NCBI GenBank assembly: GCA_947625985.1
Contig: CANQQF010000029.1
Location: 1-15,528, forward strand
Reading direction: 5' to 3'
DNA: 15,528 bases
Origin: an uncultured Clostridia bacterium
GTDB lineage: Bacteria; Bacillota_A; Clostridia; TANB77; CAG-508
Shown here: piece by piece, positions 201 through 15,381 of the stretch
Layout: each line of letters opens with the position of its first letter
Numbering within the stretch: position 1 is the first letter of the stretch
Program-made: the position numbers and the translations under genes
Notes under the pieces: generated by a model
The model's database searches: none
What the model saw: the letters and a program-made list of their open reading frames with translations, nothing else
What the model was told of the DNA's origin: nothing

Positions 201-278
201 TGGGGTGGAAGATGGGACTCGAACCCACGGTCTCCAGTGCCACAAACTGGCGCGTTAACCAACTACGCTACATCCACC
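201..278 (-). tRNA. tRNA-His (anticodon GTG)
   Basis: The minus strand folds as a complete cloverleaf. The anticodon loop TTGTGGC (245 down to 239) is closed by CCAGT/ACTGG and has anticodon GTG (243-241). The T loop is TTCGAGT, and 3' CCA is encoded (203-201). The diagnostic histidine feature is present: an extra G at -1 (278) that pairs with discriminator C73 (204), the identity element read by HisRS. The acceptor stem has one T-T mismatch at pair 6-67. It is preceded by a strong promoter and followed by tRNA-Gln fragments. I see no clear terminator after it. Confidence 0.95.
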
Positions 279-2382: not shown

Positions 2383-3747
2383 TTACTTGATACCTATACT
2401 TTTTAATGCTTCATTTATATTCCTGACGCCTATTATATCTAATTTATACTTTTCTTTCAAGAGTTTTTTATTACTTTCTGGAATAATACAAATTTTAAAT
2501 CCCAATTTTTCTGCTTCTTTTAGCCTTTTTTCTATCATATTAATTCTTCTAACTTCTCCTGTTAGCCCCACTTCTCCTATTATTACCATTTCTTTTGGAA
2601 TTGGAATATTTTTAAAAATTGAAGCTGTAACTGCAATTATTCCTAAGTCTATTGATGGTTCACTTATACGCATACCTCCAACCACATTTACATAAACATC
2701 TTGTCCCCCAAGTAGTAGACCTGTCTTTTTTTCCAATACTGCTATTAATAATGCTAGTCTATTATAATCTATACCATTCGCTGTTCTTTTTGGTATTCCA
2801 TAGATACTTTGTGTTGTTAATGCTTGTAGCTCTATAAGTACTGGTCTTGTTCCTTCAATGCAAGATATTATACATGAACCTGCTGGATTCCCCTCTCTTT
2901 CAGATATTAATACATCTGATGGATTTGTTATTTCACACATTCCTTTATCTTTCATCTCAAACATACCGATTTCATTAGTAGATCCAAATCTATTCTTTAT
3001 CCCACGTAATATTCTATATGAAAAATATCTTTCACCTTCTATATATAAAACTGTATCTACCATATGTTCTAAAACTCTTGGTCCTGCTATATTTCCATCT
3101 TTTGTAACATGTCCAATTAATATTGTTGTAATTTTTCTTGCTTTACATATTCTCATTATTTGTGAAGTTATCTCTCTAACTTGACTTACACTTCCTATTG
3201 CCGCTGTTAATTCATCTGAATACATTGTTTGAACTGAATCTATAATTACTAATTTAGGATTTAATTCTATTATTGCATTATCTACTACCTCTATATTTGT
3301 TTCACCTAAAAACATTATATTTTCATTTCGGATTCCTAATCTATCAGCTCTGAGCTTAATTTGCTCTGCTGACTCTTCTCCAGAAACATAAAGAACTGCT
3401 CCATCTCCTCTTACTTTGTTACACAATTGAAGTATTAGTGTTGATTTTCCAATTCCAGGTTCTCCTCCTAGAAGAATTAATGAACCTTTTACTAATCCTC
3501 CTCCTAATACTCTATCTAGTTCTTCAAATCCTGTAGATACTCTAATTTCTTCTTCTGAGTCATATGTATTTAATTTTTTTGGTTTATTTGTTTCTGTATT
3601 TCCTGTGAGTGCTTTTTTTCCTTTTGATTCTATAAGTTTTTGTTCGTAAAAAGTATTCCAACTATTACATGCCGGACATTTTCCTAACCATTTCGAAGAC
3701 TCATTTCCACATTCACTACATACAAATATTGTTTTTGTTTTTGACAT
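2383..3747 (-). CDS. radA: DNA repair ATPase RadA
   Basis: RecA-like branch-migration helicase acting on recombination intermediates. In order it has: an N-terminal C4 zinc finger (Cys 10, 13, 24, 27), a RecA core with Walker A GGEPGIGKST (94-103) and Walker B LVIIDS (166-171), the RadA-specific KNRFG motif (251-255), and a C-terminal Lon-protease-like domain (about 280-454) used for assembly rather than proteolysis. It is 454 aa, the usual size. The start is the ATG at 3747, preceded by AAAAGGAG at ideal spacing. The longer reading frame beginning at a GTG (3768) would include the ribosome binding site. First gene of the operon with disA. A terminator hairpin ends only about 20 bases upstream, so its promoter must overlap that structure or it depends on read-through. 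Confidence 0.97.
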   Translation of the reverse strand: MSKTKTIFVCSECGNESSKWLGKCPACNSWNTFYEQKLIESKGKKALTGNTETNKPKKLNTYDSEEEIRVSTGFEELDRVLGGGLVKGSLILLGGEPGIGKSTLILQLCNKVRGDGAVLYVSGEESAEQIKLRADRLGIRNENIMFLGETNIEVVDNAIIELNPKLVIIDSVQTMYSDELTAAIGSVSQVREITSQIMRICKARKITTILIGHVTKDGNIAGPRVLEHMVDTVLYIEGERYFSYRILRGIKNRFGSTNEIGMFEMKDKGMCEITNPSDVLISEREGNPAGSCIISCIEGTRPVLIELQALTTQSIYGIPKRTANGIDYNRLALLIAVLEKKTGLLLGGQDVYVNVVGGMRISEPSIDLGIIAVTASIFKNIPIPKEMVIIGEVGLTGEVRRINMIEKRLKEAEKLGFKICIIPESNKKLLKEKYKLDIIGVRNINEALKSIGIK

Positions 3748-3760
3748 ATTTTCTCCTTTT

Positions 3761-3780
3761 CTTACCACAAAAAAAGTATA
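3761..3780 (-). promoter_or_regulatory. Candidate extended -10 promoter of radA inside the terminator arm
   Basis: On the minus strand the distal arm of the hairpin reads TGCTATACT, which matches the extended -10 form TGnTATAAT at five of six -10 bases. The hexamer 17 bases further up (TAGCAA) is a poor -35, as is common with extended -10 promoters. The start would fall in the U-tract, giving a leader of about 20 bases. No better promoter is visible between the upstream gene and radA. Confidence 0.35.
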
Positions 3781-3810
3781 GCATAAACTTCTTTGTTTTG
3801 CTATACTTTT
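3769..3810 (-). terminator. Rho-independent terminator of the repeat-protein gene
   Basis: A perfect 12-bp stem (3810-3799 with 3783-3772) surrounds a loop that can add four more pairs. On the minus strand it is followed by a run of at least seven T. It lies 28 bases past the stop of the upstream gene and directly before radA. Confidence 0.85.
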
Positions 3811-3837
3811 ATAAATTTTTCTTTTTATATAGTATAT

Positions 3838-4215
3838 TTAATTATTTTTTTTACCTTTGAAAAAGTTAGTTATTCTTTTCCAGCTAACTTCTTGATGTAA
3901 AAATTCATTTATTTCATCTTCTACTTTTTGTTGATATGGAGTTAATTCAACTTTTATCACTTTACCCCAATCTATATCTTGTAACCAAAAAGCTTTGAAT
4001 TTGGCCCAAAAACCTCTTTTTGTAGGTAAATTATTTTCATTAATTCCTTGTCCAATTTGAGCTTCAGATTTTACAGGTTCAGTTTCTCCATCGAAGCCAA
4101 CTCCACCAAAAACTCCTGTGCCTCCAGTAATATTTTCTGCATTTTCTTGTTGTTCTCCTAGCTCAACTCCTCCAAAAACTCCTGTTACTTTATTTTCTTC
4201 ACCTAAATCGGCCAT
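3838..4215 (-). CDS. Unrecognised small protein with two pairs of internal repeats
   Basis: I do not recognise this family. The protein (125 aa from the second ATG) is soluble-looking, with no signal peptide or membrane helix. The N-terminal half is acidic and Gly-rich and carries TGVFGGV twice (11-17 and 33-39), each followed by a short stretch and then GE. The C-terminal half is aromatic and basic and carries a second repeat pair: FWLQDIDWGKV (76-86) and FLHQEVSWKRI (105-115), pattern Fxx-Q-[DE]-[IV]-x-W-x-[KR]-[VI]. The tail is Lys-rich. The ribosome binding site AAAGGAGG suits the ATG at 4215 better than the one at 4218. It has its own sigma-A promoter with WalR-like boxes upstream and ends at a strong terminator. 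The layout suggests a scaffold or adaptor with short binding motifs, possibly in cell-envelope biology, but that is inference from regulation only. Confidence 0.8.
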   Translation of the reverse strand: MADLGEENKVTGVFGGVELGEQQENAENITGGTGVFGGVGFDGETEPVKSEAQIGQGINENNLPTKRGFWAKFKAFWLQDIDWGKVIKVELTPYQQKVEDEINEFLHQEVSWKRITNFFKGKKNN

Positions 4216-4251
4216 CATTCTTCCTCCTTTGTGTTATTACTACTTATATTG

Positions 4252-4280
4252 TTTATACTATAAAAAAATTTATAAATCAA
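4252..4280 (-). promoter_or_regulatory. Sigma-A promoter of the repeat-protein gene
   Basis: On the minus strand: -35 TTGATT (4280-4275), exactly 17 bp, -10 TATAAA (4257-4252). The predicted start, near 4245, gives a leader of about 30 bases that includes the AAAGGAGG ribosome binding site. Confidence 0.75.
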
Positions 4281-4289
4281 GTGTTTTTG

Positions 4290-4339
4290 GTTGCTTTTTC
4301 ATTACTTTTTAGTTACATATTTGTTACACTTTCATTACA
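4290..4339 (-). promoter_or_regulatory. Tandem WalR-like box array upstream of the repeat-protein promoter
   Basis: On the minus strand, perfect TGTWAH half-sites occur at 4339-4334 (TGTAAT), 4328-4323 (TGTAAC) and 4317-4312 (TGTAAC), an exact 11-bp period. In phase with them are weaker matches at 4306-4301 (AGTAAT) and 4295-4290 (AGCAAC). The known WalR/YycF consensus is TGTWAH-N5-TGTWAH. The array ends 10 bp above the -35, an activator position, and overlaps the mtaB stop codon. Binding by WalR is inferred. Confidence 0.6.
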
Positions 4340-5643
4340 GTACCTTCTAAATATTCTTGCATTGCTCGTTTTCCCTCTATAGTAATTATTTTATTTTCTA
4401 TATTTGAATCAGATTTACATTCAACAAGTATATAATTATCTGTATGTCCTTTATAAACTCCTTCTTTCAGTTCCTCAATTAAAACACCTAATTGTTTTCC
4501 TACATATTGTTCATGATAATAACTCTGATTTTTATTTGAAAGTTCAATAAGAAGTTTACTTCTTTCTTCTTTAACCTTTCCATTTATTTGATTTTTCATA
4601 ACAGCTGCTTTTGTGCCTTTTCTAGGTGAATATTTAAAAACATGCATCTTATATAATTTTATTTCTTTTAGAAATTCATATGTTTGCTCAAATTCTTCAT
4701 CTGTCTCTTCAGGAAATCCAACTATTATGTCTGTTGTAATTAATACATCTTCATATGTATTTCTAATATTTTCGACTATTTTTCTAAATTGTTTAGTTGT
4801 ATATCTCCTATTCATTCTTCTTAATGTTTCATCACATCCACTTTGCAAAGATAAATGGAAATGGTGACATACTTTTTCTAATTTAGACAGCCTTTCTAAA
4901 AACATGTCATCTATTAATAATGGTTCTAAAGATCCTAATCTAATCCTTTTTAGTCCTTCAATCTTATTTATCTCTTCCAATAAATCAATTAATCGATATT
5001 CTTTTTTTAGTTTAAAATCTTTTCCATAAGAAGCTACATGTATTCCTGTTATAATAACTTCTTGTATTCCTTCTTCTACAATTTTTTTTATTTCTGATAA
5101 AATCCCCTCAGGTTTTCTACTTCTCACTCTTCCACGTGCATATGGAATGATACAATACGAACAAAAGCGGTCACATCCGTCTTGAACTTTTATGACTGCT
5201 CTTGTTTTTTCTGTATATGTAACTTCTCCAAAATCAATAAATTCTCTATCTTGCATAACATCTTCTACACTTGTTATTGTTTTTTGATCTTTTATGAATT
5301 CTTCCACATATTTTACTATATTTGCTTTTTCATTATTTCCTAATACTAAATCAATTTCAGGCATTTTCTCTAAATCATCTTTAGCAACTTGAACATAACA
5401 TCCACACGCAATTATAATAGCTTCATTATTTAACTCTTTTACTCTCCTTAACATTTGCCTTGATTTCCTATCAGACATATTAGTGACTGTACATGTGTTT
5501 ATTATATATATATCAGCTTTTTGATGATATTCTACTATTTTATATCCTGCTTTTTCAAAATCTTGTGCCATACCATTGGTTTCATATTGGTTGACTTTAC
5601 ATCCTAATGTGATAAAAGCCACTCTTTTGATTTCTTTATCCAT
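4324..5643 (-). CDS. mtaB: tRNA t6A37 methylthiotransferase MtaB
   Basis: Radical-SAM enzyme that adds a methylthio group to t6A at position 37 of ANN-decoding tRNAs (notably tRNA-Lys), giving ms2t6A. The N-terminal domain holds the auxiliary-cluster cysteines in LGCKVNQYE (C15), NTCTVT (C51) and CGCYVQ (C82). The radical-SAM motif CDRFCSYC (C157, C161, C164) follows. The C-terminal TRAM domain is about 375-439. The length, 439 aa, is normal for the family. The ATG lies 1 base after the mreB stop, with AAAAGGA inside the last mreB codons as ribosome binding site, so translation is probably coupled. The end of the gene overlaps an array of regulatory half-sites for the next gene. No terminator is seen after it, so some read-through is expected. 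Confidence 0.95.
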   Translation of the reverse strand: MDKEIKRVAFITLGCKVNQYETNGMAQDFEKAGYKIVEYHQKADIYIINTCTVTNMSDRKSRQMLRRVKELNNEAIIIACGCYVQVAKDDLEKMPEIDLVLGNNEKANIVKYVEEFIKDQKTITSVEDVMQDREFIDFGEVTYTEKTRAVIKVQDGCDRFCSYCIIPYARGRVRSRKPEGILSEIKKIVEEGIQEVIITGIHVASYGKDFKLKKEYRLIDLLEEINKIEGLKRIRLGSLEPLLIDDMFLERLSKLEKVCHHFHLSLQSGCDETLRRMNRRYTTKQFRKIVENIRNTYEDVLITTDIIVGFPEETDEEFEQTYEFLKEIKLYKMHVFKYSPRKGTKAAVMKNQINGKVKEERSKLLIELSNKNQSYYHEQYVGKQLGVLIEELKEGVYKGHTDNYILVECKSDSNIENKIITIEGKRAMQEYLEGTVMKV

Positions 5644-5644
5644 T

Positions 5645-6649
5645 TTATCCTTTTCCCTCTAATGCATCTAAGTTATCTAATGCTTTTCCTGTTCCTAATG
5701 CCACACATGAAACAGAATCTTGAGCAATCATAACATTGATACCAGTTTTTTCTTGAAGTAATTTATCTAATCCGTCTAATAAACATCCTCCACCTGTCAT
5801 ATAGATTCCTTTATCACTTATATCAGAAACAAGTTCAGGCGGTGTCCTTTCTAAAACTGAATGAACAGAATCTACAATCATCATTGCTGGCTCTATTAAT
5901 GCTTCTAACATTTCACTAGATTTAATAACTAAAGTTTTTGGAAGTCCGGACATTAAATCTCTTCCTCTAACATCCATCTCCATATCTTGTATTTTAGGAT
6001 AAACACAACCTATATTTAATTTTAAATCTTCTGCTGTCCTCTCTCCAATCATCATATTGTGCTTTTTCTTCATATATTTAACTATAGCTTCATCAAATTT
6101 ATCTCCTGCAACTTTCAATGAAGAACTAACTACAGATCCACCTAATGATATAACTGCTATATCTGTTGTTCCTCCACCAATATCTACTACCATATTTCCA
6201 CATGGTTTTGCTATATCTATTCCCGCACCTATGGCTGCTGCTATAGGTTCTTCTATAAGATATACTTTTCTAGCCCCTGCTTGTGAAGCTGCATCTATCA
6301 CTGCTTTTTTCTCAACTTCTGTAACTTGTGAAGGTATACATATCATAATTCTAGGTGCAAACAAAAACTTTCCACAAACTTTGTTTATGAAATGTTTTAG
6401 CATTTTTTCAGTAACAGTATAATCAGAAATAACTCCATCTCTAAGTGGTCTTGTTGCAACAATATTTCCTGGTGTTCTTCCTAGCATTCTTCTTGCTTCT
6501 CTTCCTACTGCTAGGACATTTCCAGTATTTTTGTCAACTGCCACAACTGATGGCTCTCTTAATACTATTCCTCTTCCTTTAACATAGGCTATTACTGTAG
6601 CTGTGCCTAAATCTATGCCTATATCTTGCCCAAAACCAAATTTAAACAT
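5645..6649 (-). CDS. mreB: Rod shape-determining actin homologue MreB/Mbl
   Basis: Bacterial actin that polymerises under the membrane and directs the elongation wall-synthesis complex. The actin-fold motifs are intact: phosphate-1 DLGTA (13-17), IEEPIAAAIG (132-141), phosphate-2 DIGGGTTD (156-163) and adenosine motif TGGG near 285. Several stretches (LAVG-EARRM-GRTPGN, MLKHFINK, RGRD-SGLP) look closer to Bacillus Mbl than to MreB, and it is not next to mreC/mreD, so an Mbl-like paralogue is likely. I use the ATG at 6649 (334 aa). The longer frame starts with TTG at 6667 and would include the ribosome binding site AAGGGG. It has a consensus promoter and four tandem WalR-like half-sites. First gene of an operon with mtaB. 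Confidence 0.95.
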   Translation of the reverse strand: MFKFGFGQDIGIDLGTATVIAYVKGRGIVLREPSVVAVDKNTGNVLAVGREARRMLGRTPGNIVATRPLRDGVISDYTVTEKMLKHFINKVCGKFLFAPRIMICIPSQVTEVEKKAVIDAASQAGARKVYLIEEPIAAAIGAGIDIAKPCGNMVVDIGGGTTDIAVISLGGSVVSSSLKVAGDKFDEAIVKYMKKKHNMMIGERTAEDLKLNIGCVYPKIQDMEMDVRGRDLMSGLPKTLVIKSSEMLEALIEPAMMIVDSVHSVLERTPPELVSDISDKGIYMTGGGCLLDGLDKLLQEKTGINVMIAQDSVSCVALGTGKALDNLDALEGKG

Positions 6650-6669: not shown

Positions 6670-6708
6670 ATTACACTTTTATTACAGTTTCTTTACAATT
6701 ATATTACA
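6670..6708 (-). promoter_or_regulatory. Four tandem WalR-like half-sites over the mreB start region
   Basis: On the minus strand TGTWAH occurs at 6708-6703 (TGTAAT), 6697-6692 (TGTAAA), 6686-6681 (TGTAAT) and 6675-6670 (TGTAAT). All four are perfect, each is separated by exactly 5 bases, and all point the same way. This is the WalR/YycF consensus repeated. The first half-site touches the -10 and the rest run past the predicted start toward the ribosome binding site, a position expected for repression. The regulator itself is inferred. Confidence 0.65.
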
Positions 6709-6726
6709 TTTTAATTGTTTTATCAA
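6698..6726 (-). promoter_or_regulatory. Sigma-A promoter of mreB-mtaB
   Basis: On the minus strand: -35 TTGATA (6726-6721), exactly 17 bp, -10 TATAAT (6703-6698). The predicted start is near 6691, with a leader of about 42 bases. It is back-to-back with the tsaE promoter, and the two -35 elements are about 10 bp apart. Confidence 0.85.
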
Positions 6727-12994: not shown

Positions 12995-13025
12995 ATAATT
13001 GAATTTAAAAAAGGGGAGGTATTTT

Positions 13026-13715
13026 ATGAAAAGAGGAACAGCAATAGTAGTTATTTTAATATTGATTATATCTCTAGCTATAATTATATTTTCTTCTAGT
13101 GAATTATCTAAACCCTTAAAAACTGGAACACAAGAAGTTGAAAATGCTGAAGAATTAAAATCTTATATTAATATTGAACCTTGTGGCAGTACTCCAGATG
13201 GAAACTATATAATAAAAATTACTAATAATAACTCAGAACCCATATATATTTCAACTTTAAATACTACTTACACAAATAAGGATGGCAATACAGTTGAGAA
13301 AGATTTTACTTCAGGTAAAGGTATAGCAGTAAATAGTTTTTCAGAAATTGTAATATATAATTCTGATTTAGGTGAAGAATATGCACAATCTCTAACCCAT
13401 GATTTTAATTACAATCTTTCTGATATCTCTAGTTATACTAAATATTATTTATATAAAAACTTTGAAATAAATGCTAATAATACTGGCGATAAGATTACTT
13501 TACAAGTAAAAAATAATAATGATGAAATTTCAAAAGATCTATCTATTAATGTACTATATTATGAAAATGGACAAATTGTAAATTGCGTTACAGTAAATTC
13601 TGAAAAAGGTTCAACTATTCCACCAGGTGAATCTACTTCTATAAATGTAGATTATCCTTCAGTTGAATTTGATTCATATGAAGTTTACTTTATAAATGCA
13701 AGTAGAAATATCTAA
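13026..13715 (+). CDS. Secreted or membrane-anchored FxLYD-like beta-sandwich protein
   Basis: Function not recognised. Residues 6-22 are a hydrophobic N-terminal segment after KR, a signal peptide or signal anchor with no lipobox. Two beta-rich, Asn/Thr-rich units follow. The second (about 145-227) has the FxLYD-family layout: ITLQVKNNNDEISKDLSINV, then VLYYENGQIV, then a Pro-Gly turn (IPPGE, 198-202) and a last strand YEVYFINA. The first (about 48-125) has the analogous YIIKITNNNSEPIYI start and is probably a diverged copy. Such domains are usually cell-surface modules. I use the ATG at 13026 (229 aa). A TTG 27 bases earlier would include the ribosome binding site. It is monocistronic, with its own promoter and terminator. 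Confidence 0.82.
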   Translation: MKRGTAIVVILILIISLAIIIFSSSELSKPLKTGTQEVENAEELKSYINIEPCGSTPDGNYIIKITNNNSEPIYISTLNTTYTNKDGNTVEKDFTSGKGIAVNSFSEIVIYNSDLGEEYAQSLTHDFNYNLSDISSYTKYYLYKNFEINANNTGDKITLQVKNNNDEISKDLSINVLYYENGQIVNCVTVNSEKGSTIPPGESTSINVDYPSVEFDSYEVYFINASRNI

Positions 13716-13924: not shown

Positions 13925-14935
13925 ATGTTAATTAAAAAAAATCAGTATATAAATGTTTTGGAAAGAATAAAGACTGAAATTTTAAAATCTCAAAAAAATT
14001 CTCAAGCAGTAAAAAAAGATATTATTTTATTATATTGGCATATCGGTAAAATACTACTTGAATATTCTGAATATGATAGCAAATTTATAAAAAATTTATC
14101 TTTAGATTTAAATTCTTTATTTTTTAATATGAAAGGATTAACTCCCTGGAACTTAAAAAAAATGAGAAAATTTGCAAAAAATTATCCGGACTATGAGTTC
14201 GTAAAAAACTATTGTTCAAAGATAACATGGTCTAACAATATCTTAATAATTGACAAAGTAGATAGTTTTGAAAAACGGAAATGGTATATTGAACAAACAA
14301 TTCAATGTTCTTGGTCCTTCAATCTATTAAATAAACAGATTAATTCTGATTTATATAATAGACAAGTTACTTCTCAAAAAGTAACTAATTTCAAAAACAC
14401 TCTACCTGCAATCCAAAGTAATTTAGCTACACAAATGCTAAAAGATCCTTATTGTTTCGATTTCATTTCTTCAAACAATAAAGTTAAAGAGTTAGAAATT
14501 GAAAAAAAATTGTTAGATAAAATTAAAGATGTTTTAATTGAACTAGGACATGGTTTTGCATTTATTGGTGATCAATACAAACTTACAATCGATGATAAAG
14601 ACTATTTTATAGATTTACTATTCTATAATGTACACCTTAAGTGTTACATTGTTATTGAATTAAAAGCAAGAGAATTTCAACCTTCTGATATAGGAAAATT
14701 AAACTTTTATCTATCTGCTGTAAATGACCTAGTAAAAAATGAAACAGATAATCCTAGTATTGGATTACTTTTATGCAAGAAAAAGGATAAATTTACAGCC
14801 CGATATGCAATAAAAGATATTAATAATCCTATTGCAGTTAGTGAATACAGACTTCTAGAAGATACCACTCAAAATTTACAATCACTACTACCAAAGCTTG
14901 AAGACATTCAATTGCATTTTTCAGATTTAGAATGA
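13925..14935 (+). CDS. DUF1016/YhcG-type PDDEXK nuclease-like protein
   Basis: Predicted DNA nuclease of the restriction-endonuclease fold, probably part of mobile-element or defence-related gene pools. The N-terminal helical DUF1016 domain covers about 10-145, with LYWHIGK (36-42), GLTPWNLKKMRKF (71-83), ITWSNNILIIDKV (100-112) and YIEQTI (121-126) matching the family pattern. The C-terminal PDDEXK domain (about 185-320) has Asp 230 in YFIDLLFYN and Glu 245-x-Lys 247 in IELKARE, then GKLNFYLSAVNDL. The active-site residues are intact. 336 aa is within the family range. The ribosome binding site AAAGGGAA lies about 8 bases before the ATG. It stands alone with its own promoter and terminator, with no restriction or toxin partner in the window. 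Confidence 0.92.
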   Translation: MLIKKNQYINVLERIKTEILKSQKNSQAVKKDIILLYWHIGKILLEYSEYDSKFIKNLSLDLNSLFFNMKGLTPWNLKKMRKFAKNYPDYEFVKNYCSKITWSNNILIIDKVDSFEKRKWYIEQTIQCSWSFNLLNKQINSDLYNRQVTSQKVTNFKNTLPAIQSNLATQMLKDPYCFDFISSNNKVKELEIEKKLLDKIKDVLIELGHGFAFIGDQYKLTIDDKDYFIDLLFYNVHLKCYIVIELKAREFQPSDIGKLNFYLSAVNDLVKNETDNPSIGLLLCKKKDKFTARYAIKDINNPIAVSEYRLLEDTTQNLQSLLPKLEDIQLHFSDLE

Positions 14936-15043: not shown

Positions 15044-15349
15044 TTATTTAATCTGTATATCTGTATAATAGATAATTTCTTTTCCTAATTTTTTCGCATA
15101 TTCTATTTCTTTTTTTGTACTATTTCCAATATAATTATTCACATCTACTACCAATATTGCATCAGATAATTCTATTCTTTTAAAATGTTCTTCTTTTAAT
15201 TTTTTTAATTGCTTATTTGTTCTTTCATGATTTTTTAATACAGGATAAACAGGTGTAAGAATACAAATACCTTTTAGTGCCATTTTTTCTGCGATATACA
15301 TCATTTCTTTTTTAAACTTAAAACTTCCACATAATGTTATTATTTTCAT
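15044..15349 (-). CDS. Small nucleoside 2-deoxyribosyltransferase-like protein
   Basis: Compact Rossmann-like protein (101 aa) of the nucleoside deoxyribosyltransferase superfamily; a role in nucleotide salvage or nucleotide-signal processing is possible but unproven. It shows the family layout: ITLCGSF (4-10) at the first strand, EEHFKRIELSDAILVVDV (53-70), and YIGNSTKKEIEYA (73-85) with the likely catalytic or binding Glu 81. It is shorter than the biochemically studied enzymes (about 150 aa) but usual for the small phage- and host-encoded group. I use the ATG at 15349. The ATG at 15361 lies in the ribosome binding site GGAGAG, and the family begins close to the first strand. Single gene, minus strand. 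Confidence 0.75.
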   Translation of the reverse strand: MKIITLCGSFKFKKEMMYIAEKMALKGICILTPVYPVLKNHERTNKQLKKLKEEHFKRIELSDAILVVDVNNYIGNSTKKEIEYAKKLGKEIIYYTDIQIK

Positions 15350-15381
15350 TAAACTCTCCATTATATCATAAAATCAATTTA

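Follow-up and report, generated by a model that had tools for sequence, protein, structure and literature searches.

The window, by which we mean the whole stretch of DNA analysed (15,528 bases, 27.5% G+C), has mreB, mtaB and a small gene on its minus strand, together with genes for RadA-like, DisA and cyclophilin proteins, the last three assigned by Pfam. The names radA and mtaB are presumptive ones, given from the look of the sequences. An open reading frame and Pfam identify mreB (5645-6649, minus strand), and next to it is mtaB (4324-5643, minus strand), the 3' end of which overlaps the first two half-sites of the repeat array at 4290-4339 that is our main subject. The small gene (3838-4218, minus strand) encodes 126 amino acids, or 125 if the second ATG is used, with VFGGV motifs and an aromatic-rich C-terminal half. 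On its 3' side, at 3772-3810 of the same strand, is a terminator-like hairpin with a U run; it has few G-C pairs and a z of -4.76, and the terminator scan did not list it. Elsewhere in the window are a tRNA-His gene (201-277, minus strand), a gene for a YhcG-type PDDEXK nuclease with a DUF1016 N-terminal domain according to Pfam (13925-14935), and two open reading frames with no Pfam match (12999-13715 and 15044-15361).

The array is read on the minus strand and comprises five half-sites with a period of 11 bp throughout. Compared with TGTWAH, the first three match at all six positions: TGTAAT (4334-4339) lies within mtaB codons, TGTAAC (4323-4328) spans the mtaB stop codon, and a second TGTAAC (4312-4317) is intergenic. 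The two that follow, also intergenic, are degenerate, with AGTAAT (4301-4306) matching at five positions and AGCAAC (4290-4295) at four, and the in-phase positions flanking the array (three upstream and four downstream) score just 1-4 of 6. The window holds three perfect period-11 triples, this one and two overlapping ones in an array at mreB, and no perfect triple at any other period from 7 to 20. Among 2000 dinucleotide shuffles of the window, 6 contained a perfect period-11 triple, and 24 a triple with one or another period between 8 and 14. The initial annotation had described three perfect and two degenerate half-sites, in phase, in one orientation and at an 11-bp period, and both the sequence and the shuffles bear this out.

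Below the array we read by eye a promoter for the small gene, with TTGATT (4275-4280, minus strand) as the -35 element and, after 17 bp, TATAAA (4252-4257, minus strand, inside TATAGTATAAAC) as the -10 element; both blocks are conserved in relatives. A strict promoter scan of 3700-4420 did not return this promoter, because the scan demands T as the last base of the -10 element; its single match was elsewhere (3901-3872), and shuffles averaged 3.3. The mreB promoter, likewise read by eye and conserved, consists of TTGATA (6721-6726), a 17-bp spacer and TATAAT (6698-6703), together 6698-6726 on the minus strand. The array that goes with it has four perfect half-sites (6703-6708, 6692-6697, 6681-6686 and 6670-6675; 6670-6708 in all, minus strand). 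While the array of the small gene sits above the -35 element, the -10 element of mreB fills the first spacer of its array, TGTAATATAAT in the window. Among relatives (the loci described below), the mreB -10 element is within the array (TGTAATATAATYGNAA) in 56 of 59 readable cases, and a TTG -35 element precedes it at 17 bp in 56 of 59 loci, a count that skips 21 of 80 loci in which the mreB match is absent or partial or the flank is too short.

To the question of whether the array at 4290-4339 belongs to mtaB or to the small gene, related loci give a consistent answer. An MtaB scan of genome contigs left 80 of 215 loci that encode a relative, under titles of Clostridia, Clostridium sp., Clostridiales or Eubacteriales; because they are related, these loci cannot be counted as independent samples. 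A relative of the small gene directly follows mtaB in 70 of the 80; variants have altered C-terminal parts (L003, L034) or a long added N-terminal part (L080). In the other ten the small gene does not follow mtaB, and one of these ten is a contig end. Of the 70 loci with the small gene, 65 have a best in-phase triple of at least 16 out of 18 and the remaining five one of 15, versus 13-15 in the nine truly gene-less loci; the contig-end locus scores 17. With the window included, 66 of 71 upstream stretches reach at least 16/18, compared with 1.4% of 2840 shuffled stretches. As the triples were picked by score, the conservation of their first three sites is partly a product of selection; the fourth in-phase site, TTTAAT, was not selected by the scoring, and a profile of 32 loci gives it 1.3-2.0 bits per column.

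A 37-row family profile located the small gene elsewhere in three of the genomes of the nine gene-less loci, and did not find it in the other six, which are possibly incomplete. Of the three relocated genes, two sit above radA on fetched stretches that lack an mtaB match and one adjoins neither gene; all three keep an 18/18 array. The small gene was also found in 11 of 391 genomes drawn from the class, three of them already in our set, and the family is therefore confined to part of the class; triples at the eight further copies score 15 to 18, and in L186, which scores 15, there is no convincing true array. Since the arrays score high with the small gene and low without it, and travel with the relocated copies, the array is passed on together with the small gene. 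The array at 4290-4339 belongs to the small gene and not to mtaB. The initial annotation had set against itself the prospect that half-sites are kept solely within mtaB codons, which is not the pattern in relatives: the triple is entirely past the mtaB stop in 49 of 71 loci, and the relocated copies keep their arrays.

The array is also kept in helical phase with the promoter. In the 60 of 71 loci with a triple of at least 16 and a -10 element of at least 10/12 (the other 11 were left out), the distance from array start to -10 element is 82 or 83 in 40 loci, 71 or 72 in 13, 61 in six and 75 in one. This distance equals 5 or 6 modulo 11 in 59 of the 60, and in 64 of all 71; the lone exception, L067, fits if its -10 element is read, by eye, as TATGAT. 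The search for arrays was limited to 45-125 bp above the -10 element, and phase with that element was not a selection criterion. Thus an activator position just above a promoter, as first proposed from the window, is supported both by the TTGATT-17-TATAAA arrangement below the array and by its conserved, phased position in relatives. Several of the shorter distances mark where the best triple starts in a longer in-phase array rather than a shorter gap. In L004, L030, L031 and L050, the perfect triple starts one helical turn nearer the -10 element than in most relatives. In an MtaB tree of 79 rows (two loci were dropped for length), L030 is nested among the longer-spaced L011, L019 and L043, while L012 with L031, and L050, fall in other parts; from these scattered positions, the one-turn step seems to have arisen more than once.

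Similar arrays were sought genome-wide in 12 relatives, 11 of them chosen for good contigs and one, the genome of L001, as the nearest relative, so that the set is not a random draw. With gaps of 3-8 allowed, there are 124 TGTAAH triples in the 12 genomes, 92 of them at gaps of exactly 5,5; the next commonest gap pair accounts for five triples, and the reversed pattern, summed over the genomes, for 26. The letters of the triples fit TGTAAY. By our own count the 92 triples are 86 places, because some arrays exceed three sites; 17 of these were excluded because their position put them at mreB or the small gene, and the remaining 69 were fetched.

NrdD adjoins arrays in ten genomes (L105, L109, L145 and seven other loci), and in nine of the ten the array is between nrdD and a divergent Crp-like gene, which suggests a link of wall signalling with nucleotide supply in anaerobes. 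FtsA adjoins arrays in seven of the 12 genomes, and Veg in four by clustering or six by eye. At ftsA (L094, L100, L113, L122, L130, L136 and L142) the arrays have the reverse orientation, and 7 bp separate the end of their last in-phase site from the -35 element below. Unnamed neighbours include a 285-residue family in six genomes, a small secreted-looking family in five, a 450-residue family in four, and a 696-residue protein together with a divergent 158-residue one in three. MinD, an S11 carboxypeptidase, a response regulator and some further unnamed proteins occur beside arrays in two genomes each, and an M23 peptidase, UvrC and Tuf once each (the last two by eye). Pfam gave no match for the families represented by L091:1366-2367, L102:1717-2121 and L110:2648-4000 (about 285, 130 and 450 residues), nor did NCBIfam for the first and third. 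The 450-residue neighbour had looked PilM-like by eye, and the name was dropped when family searches returned nothing. The arrays at ftsA, minD, the S11 and M23 peptidase genes and mreB form a set centred on the wall and division, as expected of WalR operators; NrdD, UvrC and Tuf are not typical wall genes.

Each of the 12 genomes has one WalR-like regulator, at 269.8-337 bits, with any other regulator at 220.1 bits or less. None of the 12 reaches the NCBI YycF equivalog cut-off of 340 bits, and for this reason we call them WalR-like and not WalR. One array-bearing response regulator, the protein compared across the family models, scores 328 bits with the YycF/WalR model, versus 247 with MtrA, 246 with RpaB and 220 with PhoB. 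The five chains closest to the DNA-binding domain of the regulator score 115-121 bits; three of these bear the names VicR, YycF and WalR, and RTVDVTVRR-REKIE is nearly common to the regulator and the VicR/YycF/WalR group; RegX3 comes next at 90 bits. A WalK-like kinase (334-361 bits, with a cut-off of 725) is found in 10 of the 12 genomes; in G002 it is split in two, and G004 has none but weaker kinases. In L160 and L163, the two loci read, it does not adjoin the WalR-like gene, which is followed, by reading, by ispG in both and by ispH as well in L163; in G003, G006 and G010 the kinase is on the same contig as the WalR-like gene, 8-20 kb away. Above walK, an array was sought in ten loci and the best triple reaches 14/18, although the start chosen in L192, L193 and perhaps L197 falls within the gene. 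Autoregulation of walR was considered as a general link and dropped, as there is an array at only two of 12 walR genes (the start in L168 is unreadable).

The arrays here share with WalRK (YycFG, VicRK) operators the half-site, the 5-bp gap and the direct orientation, as well as the placing above a -35 element or over a -10 element; the B. subtilis WalR consensus is given as TGTWAH-N5-TGTWAH in part of one report (PMC9210968). The themes of WalR regulons, as they appear in portions of that report and of PMC10746227, match the neighbours seen here in ftsA, D-Ala-D-Ala carboxypeptidase and surface proteins. Unlike WalRK operators, the arrays are of three to five sites in a row and phased to the promoter; unlike WalR regulons, mreB, minD, veg and nrdD are among the neighbours; and the regulator is just under the NCBI cut-off, with the kinase not adjacent in the two loci read. 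MtrA and RpaB are OmpR-family proteins like the regulator here, and MtrA governs division and wall genes according to part of another report (PMC6265350), but their models score well below that for YycF.

We consider it rather likely, judging from sequence comparison, that the array is a WalR-type operator through which a WalR-like protein activates the small gene and represses mreB-mtaB. From the motif, the regulon content and the presence of one WalR-like regulator per genome, we infer that this protein is the binder. A WalR-like OmpR-family regulator would bind the 11-bp-spaced half-sites head to tail on one face of the DNA, at about -94 to -45, and, once bound, would activate the promoter below the array; at mreB-mtaB it would instead act as a repressor, lying over the mreB -10 element, and its further targets would be ftsA, nrdD, veg and other genes of division and the envelope. 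The direction of each effect is predicted by analogy with S. aureus. For S. aureus WalR, according to PMC10746227, sites upstream of the -35 element go with activation, sites between or beyond the -35 and -10 elements go with repression, and the orientation of a site is irrelevant to the sign. With one array above the -35 element and the other over the -10 element, this rule predicts opposite signs, and thus the small gene is probably switched on, and mreB held down, by the cell wall control system. Shared control of mreB-mtaB and the small gene, possibly in opposite directions, had been proposed from the window; the mreB arrangement kept in 56 of 59 relatives and the predicted opposite signs agree with it. 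No report of WalR control of mreB was found among the titles and abstract openings of the literature searched.

Several other explanations were weighed. PhoP/PhoB boxes are 11-bp direct repeats bound by OmpR-family proteins, and the full-length best solved match of the regulator is RegX3 (the YycF/WalR chains among the matches listed are single domains), so one might suppose that the array is a phosphate box, bound by a sister OmpR-family regulator at low phosphate. This we regard as quite improbable. PstS (TIGR02136, E up to 1e-10) was found in none of the 12 genomes, while the control search succeeded in 13 of 14 named genomes, and such an absence counts against a phosphate regulon; none of the 69 fetched arrays had a recognisable phosphate gene beside it, the letters of the arrays fit TGTAAY, and the regulator scores far higher with the YycF model than with PhoB. 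An origin by chance, or as a side effect of mtaB coding where the DNA is rich in A+T, might be entertained for the window, where the first half-site is in mtaB codons and the second crosses the stop, but it has next to no likelihood given triples wholly outside mtaB in most loci, arrays that stay with the small gene away from mtaB, shuffles of window and upstream stretches that fail to reproduce the arrays, and a phase that was unselected yet kept.

Some modest chance falls to a different OmpR-family regulator of the lineage, or to two paralogues sharing one motif, as the binder of the arrays. In seven of the 12 genomes the YycF model also picks up a second or third regulator at E up to 1e-60, nine genomes have other OmpR-type regulators or kinases, and walR itself has an array in only two; on the other side, the WalR-like protein is the sole match at 1e-60 in five genomes (G004, G005, G008, G009 and G012), and all five carry arrays. 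It is also rather unlikely that the array is functional with another sign, repressing the small gene or merely tuning it: the position rule does come from part of a report on another species (PMC10746227), but an array above the -35 element and in phase with the -10 element is placed as for an activator touching RNA polymerase.

Turning to the small protein, a profile search with an E limit of 0.001 collected 2506 protein clusters, and no Pfam domain was found among the 120 listed. The protein of the window has no Pfam or NCBIfam family; among 37 family members at most three match any one model, weakly and in a scattered way (best E 0.0013), and the best match to solved structures in the PDB is at E 0.43. 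These searches found no characterised relative. The N-terminal half is acidic, with VFGGV motifs that are absent from the shorter MKEY-type members, and the C-terminal half has a net charge of +4 and repeated aromatic-rich amphipathic stretches, the hydrophobic moments being suggestive at most. Two AlphaFold models, from 37 and 67 sequences, are too poor for use (mean pLDDT 54.0 and 51.7, pTM 0.20 and 0.19), and both of these poor models predict short helices at 69-77, 93-106 and 112-119. The array had been put forward as the best clue to the role of this protein, and it does lead as far as membership in a cell envelope and division regulon, but no further. We infer an envelope or membrane site of action for the protein; from its composition and its company in the regulon, our guess is a peripheral membrane role. 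A reciprocal shape switch, thrown by one regulator within one block of genes, can be imagined: high WalR-like signalling would shut off mreB and induce the small protein, and the latter, as a peripheral membrane adaptor specific to the lineage and equipped with short, aromatic amphipathic helices, would act on the elongation or division machinery in place of MreB or against it, although we think this unlikely.

The array ties a large unnamed protein family (the 2506 clusters) to an envelope and division regulon, and this makes the function of the family testable. The arrays together offer a map, drawn from sequence only, of a WalR-type regulon in uncultured gut Clostridia. The one-turn steps in spacing amount to a natural experiment on the way such activators contact RNA polymerase. 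In these organisms mreB appears to be driven in the opposite direction from the small gene and ftsA.
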